From Treponema sp. (GTDB lineage: Bacteria; Spirochaetota; Spirochaetia; Treponematales; Treponemataceae), in the NCBI GenBank assembly GCA_016281495.1, contig JAEEIU010000015.1, forward strand, positions 1-64,000: 64,000 nt of DNA. The letters are read 5' to 3'. Positions 2,540 to 46,467 of this stretch are shown piece by piece. Each line of letters begins with the position of its first letter. Position 1 is the stretch's first letter. A model generated the notes under the pieces. The model was not told the DNA's origin. It was given only the letters and a program-made list of their open reading frames with translations, and did no database searches. Made by a program: the position numbers and the translations under genes.

Positions 2540-3901
2540 ATGGCAAAGAAAAAAGGCAGTATAGTATATAAATGTTCAAACTGCGGATATACGCAACCTG
2601 CATGGCTTGGAAAATGCCCCCAGTGCGGTGAGTGGAATACGCTGGAGGAATGCATCGTAGATCCGAATGCTTCTTCCCCAAGGATGAATGCTGATGGAAC
2701 GGCAAAAAAGGCACGTCCCGTTCCCCTTTCAAAAATCCAGGTACAGTCAGAAGGCCGTGTTTCCACAGGTAATGCTGAATTCGACCGTGTGCTTGGCGGT
2801 GGGGCTGTAAAATGTTCTGCGGTTTTGCTTGGTGGTGAACCTGGCATCGGAAAGTCGACTCTTTTGATTCAAACTGCGGCATCGGTTTTGTCCGGAATGG
2901 AAAAGGCCCGCGTCCTCTATGTCTCTGGAGAAGAATCTGCCTCACAGATAAAAAGCCGTGCCATTCGACTTGGGCTCAAGGTTGATTCCCTGGAGATTCT
3001 GTGTACCCTGCGTCTGGAAGACATCCTTGATGCCCTTGATTCCCTTAATCCGCTCCTTGTGATAATCGATTCGATTCAAACCGTCTATTCCGTTGAGGCC
3101 GGTGTTGTGCCCGGTACCGTAAGCCAGCTCAAATACTGTGCTAATGAACTCATCTCCTGGGTAAAGGAAAGGGACAGCGTGCTCATCATGACCGCCCATG
3201 TTACAAAAGACGGAACGATAGCAGGTCCCAAAAGCCTTGAGCACATGGTAGATACCGTCATTTCATTTGAACGCAACAACGATGAGGTAAGGTTCCTGCG
3301 TGCCATGAAAAACCGCTTTGGTTCAATTGACGAACTGGGAATTTTCCAGATGGACGGAGACGGCCTTAAGCCAGTTCAGGACCCTTCTTCTCTCTTTTTG
3401 ACAAGGAGGCAGGGGGCATTGCCGGCTGGGGTGGCCTGTGTGCCTGTGTTTGAGGGAAGCCGTGTCTTTGTGGTGGAAGTTCAGGCATTGACGGTTCCTG
3501 CCAAGGCATCGATGAACCGCGTGTATTCCGACAGGGTTGATTCAGCCCGTGTAAGCCGTGTTGCTGCTGTACTGGAAAAGAGGGCGGGCATTCAGTTTTC
3601 CGACCAGGACATCTACATCAATGTTGCCGGTGGTGTGCGCCTTACCGAAAGTGCCATTGATGCGGCTTTGGCGGCGGCACTGTATTCGGCAAGGACCAAC
3701 ATCCCCCTCCCTGAGCAGACCGTCGTTGTGGGTGAGCTTTCGCTTGCAGGAGAAATCAGGCCAGTGTCCAAACTCAAGCAGAGGCTCAAGGCCGCCAAAG
3801 AACTGGGATTTTCCCGTGCTGTGGCCCCTTCATCAGAGGAGGATGCCGTAGCGGTGGATTCAATCAAAAACCTTGTCCAGGCCCTTTTTTCTGGAAAATA
3901 A
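2540..3901 (+). CDS. radA: DNA repair protein RadA
   Basis: 453 residues, normal length. RadA is a RecA-like DnaB-type helicase that drives branch migration during recombinational repair. Visible in order: an N-terminal zinc finger (CSNCGYTQPAWLGKCPQCG, residues 12-30), a Walker A motif GEPGIGKST near residue 98, a hydrophobic Walker B segment ending in DSIQT, the RadA-specific KNRFG motif near 257, and a C-terminal Lon-protease-like domain that lacks proteolytic function in this family. The start is preceded by TAGGAG. An AT-rich spacer follows. Confidence 0.97.
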   Translation: MAKKKGSIVYKCSNCGYTQPAWLGKCPQCGEWNTLEECIVDPNASSPRMNADGTAKKARPVPLSKIQVQSEGRVSTGNAEFDRVLGGGAVKCSAVLLGGEPGIGKSTLLIQTAASVLSGMEKARVLYVSGEESASQIKSRAIRLGLKVDSLEILCTLRLEDILDALDSLNPLLVIIDSIQTVYSVEAGVVPGTVSQLKYCANELISWVKERDSVLIMTAHVTKDGTIAGPKSLEHMVDTVISFERNNDEVRFLRAMKNRFGSIDELGIFQMDGDGLKPVQDPSSLFLTRRQGALPAGVACVPVFEGSRVFVVEVQALTVPAKASMNRVYSDRVDSARVSRVAAVLEKRAGIQFSDQDIYINVAGGVRLTESAIDAALAAALYSARTNIPLPEQTVVVGELSLAGEIRPVSKLKQRLKAAKELGFSRAVAPSSEEDAVAVDSIKNLVQALFSGK

Positions 3902-3943
3902 ATAAAATTATTGAAATAAAATGTAAATCTTTATTAAAAAAAC

Positions 3944-3972
3944 TTGACAATTAATCTTGATTGGAGTATATT
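3944..3972 (+). promoter_or_regulatory. Strong sigma-70-type promoter for the small RNA
   Basis: -35 TTGACA (3944-3949), 17-base spacer, -10 TATATT (3967-3972). The predicted start is near 3979. No open reading frame begins soon after it; a terminator lies about 60-95 bases downstream. Confidence 0.85.
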
Positions 3973-3978
3973 AAAAAC

Positions 3979-4075
3979 AGCTTGTAAATAAGCTGATAAA
4001 CTCTCTCCGATGTCCGAGAAATCGGACGGTAGAGGTCTCGAATGGCGTTGCTGTTTGGGACCTCTATTTTTTTTT
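3979..4075 (+). ncRNA. Candidate small structured RNA, three hairpins
   Basis: The segment between a near-consensus promoter and an intrinsic terminator is about 95 nt with no coding sense. Hairpin 1 pairs CAGCTT with AAGCTG (3978-3995). Hairpin 2 is GTCCGA-GAAA-TCGGAC (4012-4027), closed by a GNRA tetraloop. Hairpin 3 pairs AGAGGTC (4031-4037) with GACCTCT (4059-4065) and ends in a run of T. The downstream serine acetyltransferase gene appears to have its own promoter, so this looks like a free-standing RNA and not only an attenuator. I do not match it to a known RNA family or riboswitch. Confidence 0.65.
4031..4075 (+). terminator. Terminator of the small RNA
   Basis: A 7-8 bp stem (AGAGGTC / GACCTCT) followed by about nine T residues. 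Confidence 0.85.
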
Positions 4076-4100
4076 GTGTCATATTGGTAATTTTCCACCC

Positions 4101-4129
4101 TTTACGTTTCCCCATTATTTTGCTATTAT
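4101..4129 (+). promoter_or_regulatory. Promoter placing the mRNA 5' end at the cysE start codon
   Basis: -35 TTTACG (4101-4106), 17-base spacer, extended -10 TGCTATTAT (-10 hexamer 4124-4129). Six bases separate the -10 box from ATG 4136, and there is no Shine-Dalgarno sequence. Confidence 0.55.
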
Positions 4130-4135
4130 ATCCCC

Positions 4136-5014
4136 ATGCTTTGTGATGAAAAGATGGAAAACATGCATTCAATTGATAATGCTGTCAACAATATATTGGA
4201 ATCCTACAATAAATATGGCGGAATTAACCTGGAGGAGGCGATGGAATTCCCAAACCGCCAGAATGTCGTGGAGATCCTGCGTGACATAATCAGCTTGATT
4301 TTTCCTGGATTCCGCACTGCCGAGGACATTGACTGTGAGACTTTGCGCTATGTTACCGGGCAAAAGGTCAATAGGATCATATCCATGCTTACCCGTGAGA
4401 TTAAAAAGGCCCTGATTTACGTTACACAGGGTACGGAGGTCTCCAACTGCCATTGTTTCAGTCTTGCACAAAAGGCAGCCGAAGCTTTGATTGAGGAAAT
4501 CCCTGAGATACGCAGAAAGGTCGGGCTTGACGTTCAGGCTGCATACCAGGGGGATCCGGCCGCCAAATCCACCGAGGAAGTAATAGTTTCATATCCGGGG
4601 CTTGAGGCGATTGTCGTTTACCGTATTGCACATTTCCTATGCGAAAATGGAGTTCCTGTCATACCAAGAATCATGAGCGAGCATGCGCATGGTAAAACCG
4701 GCATAGACATAAATCCCGGCGCAACAATAGGGGAAAGCTTTTTCATCGACCATGGAACCGGTGTCGTAATAGGCGAATCCTGCTCAATAGGCAACAATGT
4801 AAAGATTTATCAGGGTGTCACCCTAGGGGCACTTAGTGTAAAAAAGGAGCTGATGAACAAAAAGCGCCACCCGACAATCGAGGATAACGTCACAATCTAC
4901 GCAAATGCCACGATTTTGGGCGGTGAAACTGTCATTGGCGAGGGCAGTACAATAGGCGGCAATACCTGGGTAACCAAATCTGTTCCTCCCAAAACCCTTC
5001 TTACTCAGTCGTAA
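4136..5014 (+). CDS. cysE: Serine O-acetyltransferase
   Basis: 292 residues. It should transfer acetyl from acetyl-CoA to L-serine, giving O-acetylserine for cysteine synthesis. An N-terminal helical region (about 1-160) is followed by a left-handed beta-helix of hexapeptide repeats (GIDINPGATIGESFFIDHG, VVIGESCSIGNNVKIYQGV) carrying the catalytic His of the DHGTG segment and the conserved HPTIEDNV block. The length fits the longer EpsC/SrpH-type enzymes. The start is uncertain: ATG 4136 lies 6 bases after a -10 box (leaderless), ATG 4154 is an alternative. No cysteine synthase gene is adjacent. Confidence 0.9.
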   Translation: MLCDEKMENMHSIDNAVNNILESYNKYGGINLEEAMEFPNRQNVVEILRDIISLIFPGFRTAEDIDCETLRYVTGQKVNRIISMLTREIKKALIYVTQGTEVSNCHCFSLAQKAAEALIEEIPEIRRKVGLDVQAAYQGDPAAKSTEEVIVSYPGLEAIVVYRIAHFLCENGVPVIPRIMSEHAHGKTGIDINPGATIGESFFIDHGTGVVIGESCSIGNNVKIYQGVTLGALSVKKELMNKKRHPTIEDNVTIYANATILGGETVIGEGSTIGGNTWVTKSVPPKTLLTQS

Positions 5015-9063: not shown

Positions 9064-12000
9064 ATGTTCGCAAAAAGCAGAAAAATCGAACGTAAGTACA
9101 TCGGTAAGGATATCCAGGACTTTATGGATCTCCCCGATCTAATCGACATCCAGCTTTCTTCCTACGAATTTTTCATTCAAAAAGAACGCCTGGACAAAGG
9201 AGAGCCGCTGTTAAACCAGGGCTTGCAGGAAGTATTCACTTCTACCTTCCCAATCGAAAGTCCAAATGGCGACATGACGCTGGATTTTGTATCTTACAGT
9301 TTGGATGAAAAGAATATCAAGTACAGCGAACTTGACTGCAAGAAAAAGGGCCTTACATATCAGGTGCCCCTCCACGCTTGCATTAACTTGACATTTAACG
9401 AAACAGGTGTCATTCAGCAGAAAAAAGACGTCTACATGGGCGACATCCCGTTGATGACCGACCGCGGAACATTCATCATTAATGGTGCTGAGCGCGTTGT
9501 CGTAAGTCAGATCCACCGTTCGCCTGGTGTAATCTTCAAGTATGAGAAGGGCGTTTACTCAAGCCGCATCATTCCATATCGTGGTTCATGGCTTGAATTT
9601 GAAATTGACCAGAAAAAAGACCTTATCTATGCAAAGATTGACCGCAAGAAGAAAATCCTTGCAACAATCTTCCTCCGCTCATTGGGTTATTCAACACGCG
9701 AGGAAATCATAGATTGTTTCTATACCAGCGAAGAAATCAAGATTCCTACAGATGCAGCCAAACGTGAAAAGATCGTGGGAAGAGTTCTGTCTCGTGCAGT
9801 TATTATTCAGGATGAGGAAACAGGAGAAGAAAGAAAGCTTTTCCGCGCAGGAACAAAACTTCATCCGCATGACATCGACGACCTTGTTGCCAACAAGGTA
9901 AAGACATTGAACGTCATTCAGTTTAATGCAAGACAGAATCCTGGCAAGAAAGAAGAATTCAATCCGTCACTGGACAGCGAGATGATCATCAACTGCTTTG
10001 AGCGTGAGGAAATCATCTTTGCAAAAGACGGGCAGGAAATCACCGACGAGCCGACAAAGGAAGACTGCATCCAGAAAGTGCATGATGTCCTGAATCCTGG
10101 TGAGCCAAGCACATTTGAGCAGGCCGAAAAGGACCTCCAGAGCATGTTCTTCAGTGAGCGCCGTTATGAATTGAGCCGTGTTGGACGCTATAAGCTGAAC
10201 AAAAGGTTCAACTATGATCCGCCAAGAGAAGAATTGACTCTTACAACAGATGACATCATCAATACGATGAAGCATTTGATCGAAGTATATCTTCAGCCGG
10301 AACTTGTAGACGACCAGGATCACCTTGGAAACCGCCGCATCCGTTCTGTTGGTGAACTTCTTACAAACCAGTACAAGACTGCATTCGCCCGCATGGAGCG
10401 CATTGCAAAAGACCGCATGAACCTTAAGGAAGTTGAAACCCTCAAGCAGGTGGACCTTATTTCAATCAAACCGATTGTATCTGCCGTTAAAGAGTTCTTT
10501 GGATCATCACAGCTTTCACAGTTCATGGATCAGTGTAACCCGCTTGCCGAGCTTACACACAAACGCCGCTTGAACGCTTTGGGACCGGGTGGTCTTTCCC
10601 GTGACAGGGCAGGTTTCGAAGTCCGTGACGTTCACTATACACACTATGGACGCATGTGCCCGATTGAAACTCCTGAAGGTCCGAACATCGGTCTTATCGT
10701 TTCTCTTTCAATCTTCACACGCATCAACGAATACGGATTCCTGGAAGAACCATACCGCAAGGTAGAAAACGGAAAGGCAACAGACAAGGTAGACTATCTT
10801 GATGCAACCGACGAAGACAAGTACTACATCGGTCAGGTAACAGAAGGAATGAAAAAGGACGGATCTTTCCCAACCGATTTCGTTTCATGCCGTCACCGCG
10901 GAGACTATTCAACACGTTCTCCAAAGGACATTCAGTACATGGATGTTTCTCCACGTCAGGTTATCTCTGTATCTGCTTCCCTTGTTCCGTTCCTTGAACA
11001 TGATGACGCCAACCGTGCATTGATGGGCTGCAACATGCAGAGACAGGCAGTACCGCTTTTGTTCCCGGAGCCACCATATGTAGGAACCGGTATGGAGCAG
11101 AAGACAGCATACGATTCAGGCGTTCTTGTTAAGGCAAAACGCGATGGTGAAGTTGTATGGGTAGAAAGCGACCTTATCAAGATTAAGCCGACCGGAGTAA
11201 AGGGAGATGTTCTTGATGAATATCCACTCCTCAAATACCAGAAGACAAACAGCGATACATGTAATCACCAGAGGCCGACTGTTCAGGTTGGAGAAAAGGT
11301 AAAGAAGGGTGCCGTAATTGCAGACGGTCCTGCAACATTCAACGGTGAGCTTGCCCTTGGACGCAACATTCTTGTTGGATTCGTTCCGTGGAATGGATAC
11401 AACTATGAGGATGCCGTTCTCATCAGCCAGCGTGTTGTAAAAGAAGACATGTATACCTCTGTCCATATCCATGAGTTTGAGACAGACATCCGTGAGACTA
11501 AGCTTGGTCCGGAAAAGATTACACGTGAAGTTCCAAATACACCGGAAAAGATTCTTGAAAACCTCGATGCCGAAGGTATCATCCGCATAGGTGCTAAAGT
11601 ACACTCGGGCGATATCCTTGTAGGTAAGGTTACACCAAAGAGCGAAACCGATACAACTCCGGAATTCAAGCTCTTGAATGCAATCTTCGGTGAAAAGTCA
11701 AAGGACGTACGCGATTCATCACTTAAACTCCAGCATGGTGTTCAGGGTGTTGTAATCGGAGTAGAACGCCTTAAGAGATCTGAAGGTGACGAACTTCCTC
11801 CAGGTGTAAGTGAAAAGATTAAGATTCTTGTTGCCGATAAGCGTAAGCTTGTTGTTGGTGACAAGATGGCAGGACGCCACGGAAACAAGGGTGTTGTAGC
11901 CCGCATTCTTCCGGTAGAAGACATGCCGTATCTTGACGATGGTACTCCTCTTGATGTATGTCTGAACCCGCTTGGTGTTCCTTCCCGTATGAACATCGGT

Positions 12001-45480: not shown

Positions 45481-46467
45481 TCATAACAGCTCCGGGGCAG
45501 TCCTGTAGATGAACTCGTGGATTTTTTCCCAGTAGGTCTGTGGGTGTGCAAAAATCGAATGGCAGTGTTTTGCCTCAGGAAAAATGAACCAGTCTTTGGG
45601 TGAAGATATTGAATTGTAGATCGGTTTTAGCATCGTCGGTGGAACAAGAGTGTCTGCTCCTCCGTGAATCAAAAGAACCGGTGTTCTGGCTTTTTTAAGC
45701 TGCTTTATGCATGAAACTTTCTTTAGGCTGAAGCCAAGCCTCAGACGTATGAAGATTTTCCAGATGTAAAGTCCCATATTTGTTTTTTTATGCATCTTGT
45801 GTTTTCCAAGGTGTTTGAATTGATTCCATGCGGTGTCAAATGCACTGTCGGAGATGGCACACTTCAGGTTTTCGGGAACCGCTTCTCCAAGTGTCATAAG
45901 GACAATGGCGGCACCCATGCTTTCTCCGTGGAGGATGATTTGTGCATCCTTGTCCATTTCGGTGATGCAGTTGAGCCATGCAAGCGCGTCGTATTTTTCG
46001 TTCCAGCCCATGCTAAGGAATTTGCCTTCGCTTTGACCTATGCATCGGTTTTCCGTAAGAATCACGTTAAAGCCCATTTCTGCATAGTGCAGTCCGTAGG
46101 GTGCGATGTTTGCGGTGTTTCCCCTGTAGCCGTGTATGCAGAGTGCATATTTGTGGCTTTCTTTTTTTGCAAGATAGAAAAATCCATGAAGCCTGTAACC
46201 TTCCCTTGAGTTTACCCACAGGTCCTGAACAGTACTTGAATCCCTCCATTCCTGGGCCTTTTTTCTGGTTGAATCCTTGCATTCCTGGATTTCCTTTTCC
46301 CTGTCTGTTTTGGGGGTGGACTTCTTCTTCCATGGAACAGCATTCCATGCTTTTGTCTTGGGCATGAAAAAGGCTGTTATGAATTTGTTTGCTATAATCG
46401 TGATGACAATGCCCGCTATTAGTACTATACCCAGTACAACAATCAGTATTATCTGCCAGAGTTCCAT
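45481..46467 (-). CDS. Alpha/beta hydrolase, membrane-anchored
   Basis: 328 residues from ATG 46467, which follows a GGAGGGAGGGAG ribosome site; the frame is open to 46584 but without a better start. One N-terminal membrane span (IILIVVLGIVLIAGIVITII). The hydrolase core shows YALCIHGYRGNTAN (oxyanion strand), ENRCIGQSEGKFLSMG, the nucleophile elbow HGESMGAAI, a VLLIHGGADTLVP Asp loop, and a late His (AKHCHSI). It resembles the YkfA/BAAT-like family of membrane-linked serine hydrolases found in many gut bacteria. Substrate unknown. mscS lies just upstream on the same strand, 19 bases away. Confidence 0.9.
   Translation of the reverse strand: MELWQIILIVVLGIVLIAGIVITIIANKFITAFFMPKTKAWNAVPWKKKSTPKTDREKEIQECKDSTRKKAQEWRDSSTVQDLWVNSREGYRLHGFFYLAKKESHKYALCIHGYRGNTANIAPYGLHYAEMGFNVILTENRCIGQSEGKFLSMGWNEKYDALAWLNCITEMDKDAQIILHGESMGAAIVLMTLGEAVPENLKCAISDSAFDTAWNQFKHLGKHKMHKKTNMGLYIWKIFIRLRLGFSLKKVSCIKQLKKARTPVLLIHGGADTLVPPTMLKPIYNSISSPKDWFIFPEAKHCHSIFAHPQTYWEKIHEFIYRTAPELL

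Follow-up and report, generated by a model that had tools for sequence, protein, structure and literature searches.

The region between radA and cysE in the window (the whole 64,000-nt stretch of the Treponema sp. contig analyzed here) contains, on the forward strand, a gene for a small RNA of about 95 nt, which defines an apparently undescribed family, of a known kind of sRNA, with representatives across much of the Treponemataceae. We think it probable that this is a trans-acting base-pairing sRNA of the anti-Shine-Dalgarno type, which would act independently of Hfq, control translation via the pairing of its seed, and have phages either among its targets or titrating it.

The gene is headed by a sigma-70-type promoter, TTGACA-17-TATATT (3944-3972, +), which matches the consensus at 11 of 12 positions, and the RNA itself spans 3979-4073 (+), with its 5' end placed from the promoter spacing at 3979, 7 nt past the -10 element. 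It comprises: hairpin 1 (AGCUUGUAAAUAAGCU; 3979-3994, +), with a predicted AGCUUG/UAAGCU stem; an unpaired stretch, GAUAAACUCUCUCCGAU (3995-4011, +), whose core AAACUCUCUCC at 3999-4009 is the proposed seed; hairpin 2 (4012-4027, +), predicted as GUCCGA-GAAA-UCGGAC, with a variable loop; and hairpin 3 (4028-4073, +), an intrinsic terminator with a predicted 19-pair stem followed by a T-run. The predicted folding energy of the 97-nt segment 3979-4075 is -40.2 kcal/mol (z = -6.5), a stability equaled by none of 200 shuffles. The near-consensus promoter, the three hairpins and the terminator within about 95 nt are hence all present as originally predicted; the GAAA tetraloop noted in that prediction is found in the window copy but is not conserved, with relatives having AAUG, UUUG, GAAA and other loops. 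The flanking genes code for RadA (TIGR00416) and a CysE-type serine O-acetyltransferase, and the promoter previously attributed to cysE amounts to only a weak 9/12 match at 4101-4129. Elsewhere in the window, a 400-aa ORF (933-2135, +) upstream of a NusG_II gene has no NCBIfam or Pfam match.

The earlier claim that the RNA has no coding frame agrees with the family-wide picture, as none is conserved across 77 distinct copies. That the locus is instead coding, with a leaderless or tiny gene that initiates at the AUG following the core, could be argued from the retention of the AUG of CUCUCUCCGAUG in most members of the genus; this AUG, however, has no Shine-Dalgarno sequence and is absent 3' of the core in 7 of the 77 distinct copies, while in 25 of the remaining 70 the frame stops within 20 codons. 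Moreover, the frame lengths are spread over all three phases and sequence changes track base pairing rather than codons. The missing AUGs, early stops and frame phases contradict this reading, which we regard as scarcely credible.

BLASTN recovered the sRNA in relatives within the genus, and a covariance model built from 26 copies matched 169 of 196 genus genomes at E <= 0.01, including 79 of the 84 high-quality ones; some genomes hold two or three copies. Named carriers include T. bryantii, T. ruminis, T. berlinense, T. porcinum, T. socranskii and a T. brennaborense MAG. Two good-quality genus genomes (G001 and G246) were observed to have no detectable copy. At the level of the family, the model matches 12 of the 20 genera of Treponemataceae; genera g46 and g51 gave no match at E <= 0.1 in the genomes sampled, and beyond the family the model returned a single weak match (E 0.019). 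A blastn search of collections of plasmid and phage records found no copies of the sRNA.

Conservation of the stems with compensatory changes among related treponemes had been put forward as a check on the original prediction, and the signal is strong. In 81 distinct rows every one of the 30 base pairs has undergone a double-sided change at least once, pairing is kept in 95.8% of cells (75.3% in shuffles), and the covariation score is 0.586 as against 0.201 for shuffled and 0.087-0.142 for slid controls, although this alignment was fitted to the covariance model and hence leans towards it. The real covariation was approached by none of 500 shuffles and by no slid control. An independent MAFFT alignment of 26 sequences (A1) already displays compensatory changes in 21 of the 30 pairs. 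Considered separately, hairpin 2 shows such changes in 6/6 pairs (98.3% paired) and hairpin 3 in 18/18; hairpin 1, with 97.3% of its cells paired, is nearly invariant in sequence within the genus and has been rebuilt with different sequences in divergent members. The tip of the terminator is GUU in at least 90% of A1, and most members have a Y-R pair closing it; divergent members have lost this tip.

A broader collection of 158 candidate copies, identified by the core plus a T-run and including a few that are not true copies (e.g. L130, L269, L277), illuminates the autonomy of the gene. Of the 158 candidates, 145 are preceded by a promoter-like sequence that fits at 9 or more of 12 positions, with the 17-nt spacing in 132, and in 95 the end of the -10 element lies exactly 25 nt ahead of AAACTC. 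Many copies adjoin unrelated genes, and nearly all copies in the family come with a promoter and terminator of their own. The window copy precedes cysE in the same orientation, which is shared by about 18 of the 158 candidates and would be compatible with action in cis on cysE, as a leader or attenuator; about 82, however, run antiparallel to cysE, and in 54 neither radA nor cysE is found within ~1.5 kb, partly on account of contig ends. Further, the complete terminator has no conserved antiterminator competing with it. The order radA>sRNA>cysE seen in the window is a minority arrangement, and the copies lack the constant placement ahead of a regulated gene, and in its orientation, that is typical of a riboswitch or cis-leader. 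Since strand and neighbors vary among copies, we conclude that the RNA is independent, as first proposed, and neither a cis leader nor a riboswitch; the genomic context contradicts the cysE-leader reading, to which we assign a very low probability. As a side observation, a comparison of window 3901-4136 with L007, L095 and others shows that the radA/cysE region itself has been rearranged: the sRNA runs antiparallel to both radA and cysE in the majority of relatives, while the lineage of the window has it in parallel orientation and with a different order of genes.

The strongest constraint in the sRNA falls on the unpaired core, even where hairpin 1 has been rebuilt. The core is invariant in the 26 sequences of A1, is unpaired in the predicted folds, and is unchanged in divergent members with an unrelated hairpin 1 sequence (e.g. 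L089, L090, L091 and L092). It is absent from one very weak match (L093; E = 0.0034), which may not be a true member of the family. The core is complementary to GGAGAGAGUUU, an extended Shine-Dalgarno-like sequence, and in this respect resembles an anti-Shine-Dalgarno seed.

Searches for bacterial partners yielded no convincing target. Genes preceded by GGAGAGAGTT..ATG across 86 genomes include no recurrent orthologues, with the exception of one pair from close relatives; the 13-mer CGGAGAGAGTTTA occurs across the 196 genomes mostly inside the sRNA gene itself, with no convincing target; and the initiation regions of the window pair with the core at duplex energies no better than with shuffled cores. 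Within the window, the gene predicted to pair best with the core is an alpha/beta-hydrolase-type one (45484-46467, -), whose initiation region reads GGAGGGAGGGAGAGAGAUG and for which 2 of 100 shuffled cores did equally well. Hfq is the usual partner of base-pairing sRNAs. We detected Hfq (PF17209) in none of 16 genomes, that of the window included, while 5 of 14 controls were positive. This result and the lack of a recurrent bacterial target count against the base-pairing reading that we favor. The lack of a target in the Shine-Dalgarno-pattern and 13-mer searches could favor an RNA that is bound by protein, i.e. a sponge or RNP component in which AAACUCUCUCC and the terminator tip (Y-GUU-R) are the recognized elements. 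The core is indeed more constant than most seeds, hairpin 1 barely varies in the genus, and the conserved terminator tip is unnecessary for pairing. Nevertheless, divergent members do without the tip, and a sponge or decoy is expected to occur as a sense-strand copy, whereas phages hold complements, not copies, of the core and hairpin 1. We therefore consider a protein-binding role unlikely.

These complements were found in eight IMG/VR phage contigs, where sequences complementary to the 5' half of the sRNA, perfect over up to 33 nt and with up to three sites per contig, are situated just upstream of ribosome-binding sites. A scan of viral contigs for AAGCTGATAAACTCTCTCC returned one contig, L254 (54 kb, with terminase and portal genes), with sites at 9376, 9915 and 11204. 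All three are intergenic, on the coding strand and directly past stop codons, lie on the strand opposite to that of an sRNA gene, and have neither a promoter nor a terminator; two of them are immediately ahead of an SD-ATG, and one complements the window sRNA across 33 nt. Further scans uncovered two elements in L335 (- strand, ~2120 and ~3790), related elements in L446, L502, L508, L509 (where an opposite-strand ORF overlaps the site) and L510, and two sites of one contig (L315/L333) with an element that lacks the hairpin. These too precede SD-like sequences and are on the coding strand, and three contigs have multiple sites. The common phage element consists of GAGAGAGUUUAUC, a small hairpin, AAGGAG and AUG. 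Viral matches within coding sequence (e.g. L259, L260, L261) were set aside as chance. Duplex energies computed for eight sites against the first 33 nt of the sRNA range from -27 to -56 kcal/mol, whereas shuffled sites give about -8 to -13, and the cofold gain is -18 to -41 kcal/mol. Two of the contigs have a 7-codon ORF after the element, MRMPQAP (L254, ~11247) and MYWPTAP (L335, - strand, ~2074), with a similar pattern that could be due to chance. The phages are likely to have a treponeme host because of the 33-nt complement to a treponeme-specific RNA; for the phage terminase, a 38% relative is present in one of the 196 treponeme genomes and a 37% one in a Tetrasphaera phage.

As long perfect complements were found only in phage leaders and no recurrent target emerged from bacterial genomes, the sRNA could be envisaged as mainly an anti-phage RNA, silencing phage genes via the conserved GAGAGAGUUUAUC-hairpin-AAGGAG leader. 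However, under such pressure the sites should vanish, yet some phages have two or three; the near-universal copy of the core better suits a housekeeping regulator, and the host of the phages is itself putative. Hence, we hold a primarily anti-phage role to be improbable, slightly more so than protein binding.

We instead favor the trans-acting regulator, for which we infer expression from its own promoter, with the transcript beginning at hairpin 1 and ending after ~95 nt at the terminator. Hairpin 1 would shield the 5' end, and the constant GAUAAACUCUCUCCGAU, kept open between hairpins 1 and 2, would be available as a seed that pairs in vivo with GGAGAGAG-type sequences in the translation-initiation regions of its presumed bacterial targets. 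The control of translation would most likely come from ribosome access being blocked or altered without the aid of Hfq. Given that the complements of the 5' half lie directly ahead of phage ribosome-binding sites, phage mRNAs carrying long complements would be either regulated by the sRNA or titrating it; because the elements are within mRNA leaders, they are possibly regulated sites as well as sponges. More tentatively, and perhaps with somewhat less than even chances, the phage leader element, with its seed complement, a small hairpin facing hairpin 1 and a ribosome-binding site, may switch phage translation via the housekeeping sRNA of Hfq-less treponemes or soak it up during infection.

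With respect to known RNAs, neither Rfam 15 at gathering scores nor a relaxed scan yielded a family, in keeping with the initial impression that the RNA resembles no nameable riboswitch. The relaxed scan returned weak hairpin/terminator likenesses (E 0.34-8.6) that we rejected: ctRNA_pGA1 (RF00236; 18.8 vs gathering 45), PrrF (RF00444; 14.7 vs 90) and HPnc0260 (RF02194; 27.5 vs 59). Sequence and topic searches of the literature, covering open-access articles with most subscription journals outside their reach, found no report of the sRNA. Few sRNAs are annotated in spirochaetes, with 6 counted in 2022 (PMC9029176). The sRNA described here, found across the family, strongly covarying and with a fixed 11-nt core, offers an entry point to RNA regulation in the absence of Hfq, with the phage leader complements as ready candidate pairing partners.

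Our working analogue, without a claim of membership, is the AbcR1/AbcR2 pair of alpha-rhizobial trans-sRNAs, which have an anti-SD motif in the unpaired segment that separates SL1 from SL2 (PMC8844928). The two share a similar size (AbcR 114-121 nt), an own gene, stem-loops and the placement of the motif between the first two of these. They are not known to be linked in sequence, and they differ in phylum and in the core, which is UUCCCCUC and CUCCUCCC in AbcR as opposed to CUCUCUCC in the treponeme sRNA; the AbcR targets are known, whereas none was found in bacteria for the treponeme sRNA, and the Rfam scan as a whole gave no AbcR match. The phage elements in turn are reminiscent of AgvB, a mimic of a GcvB target (PMC4104026), in that they complement the seed of a core bacterial sRNA; however, AgvB is an sRNA in its own right, encoded by phage in E. 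coli, which has Hfq, while the complements of the treponeme sRNA lie within mRNA leaders, upstream of ribosome-binding sites.
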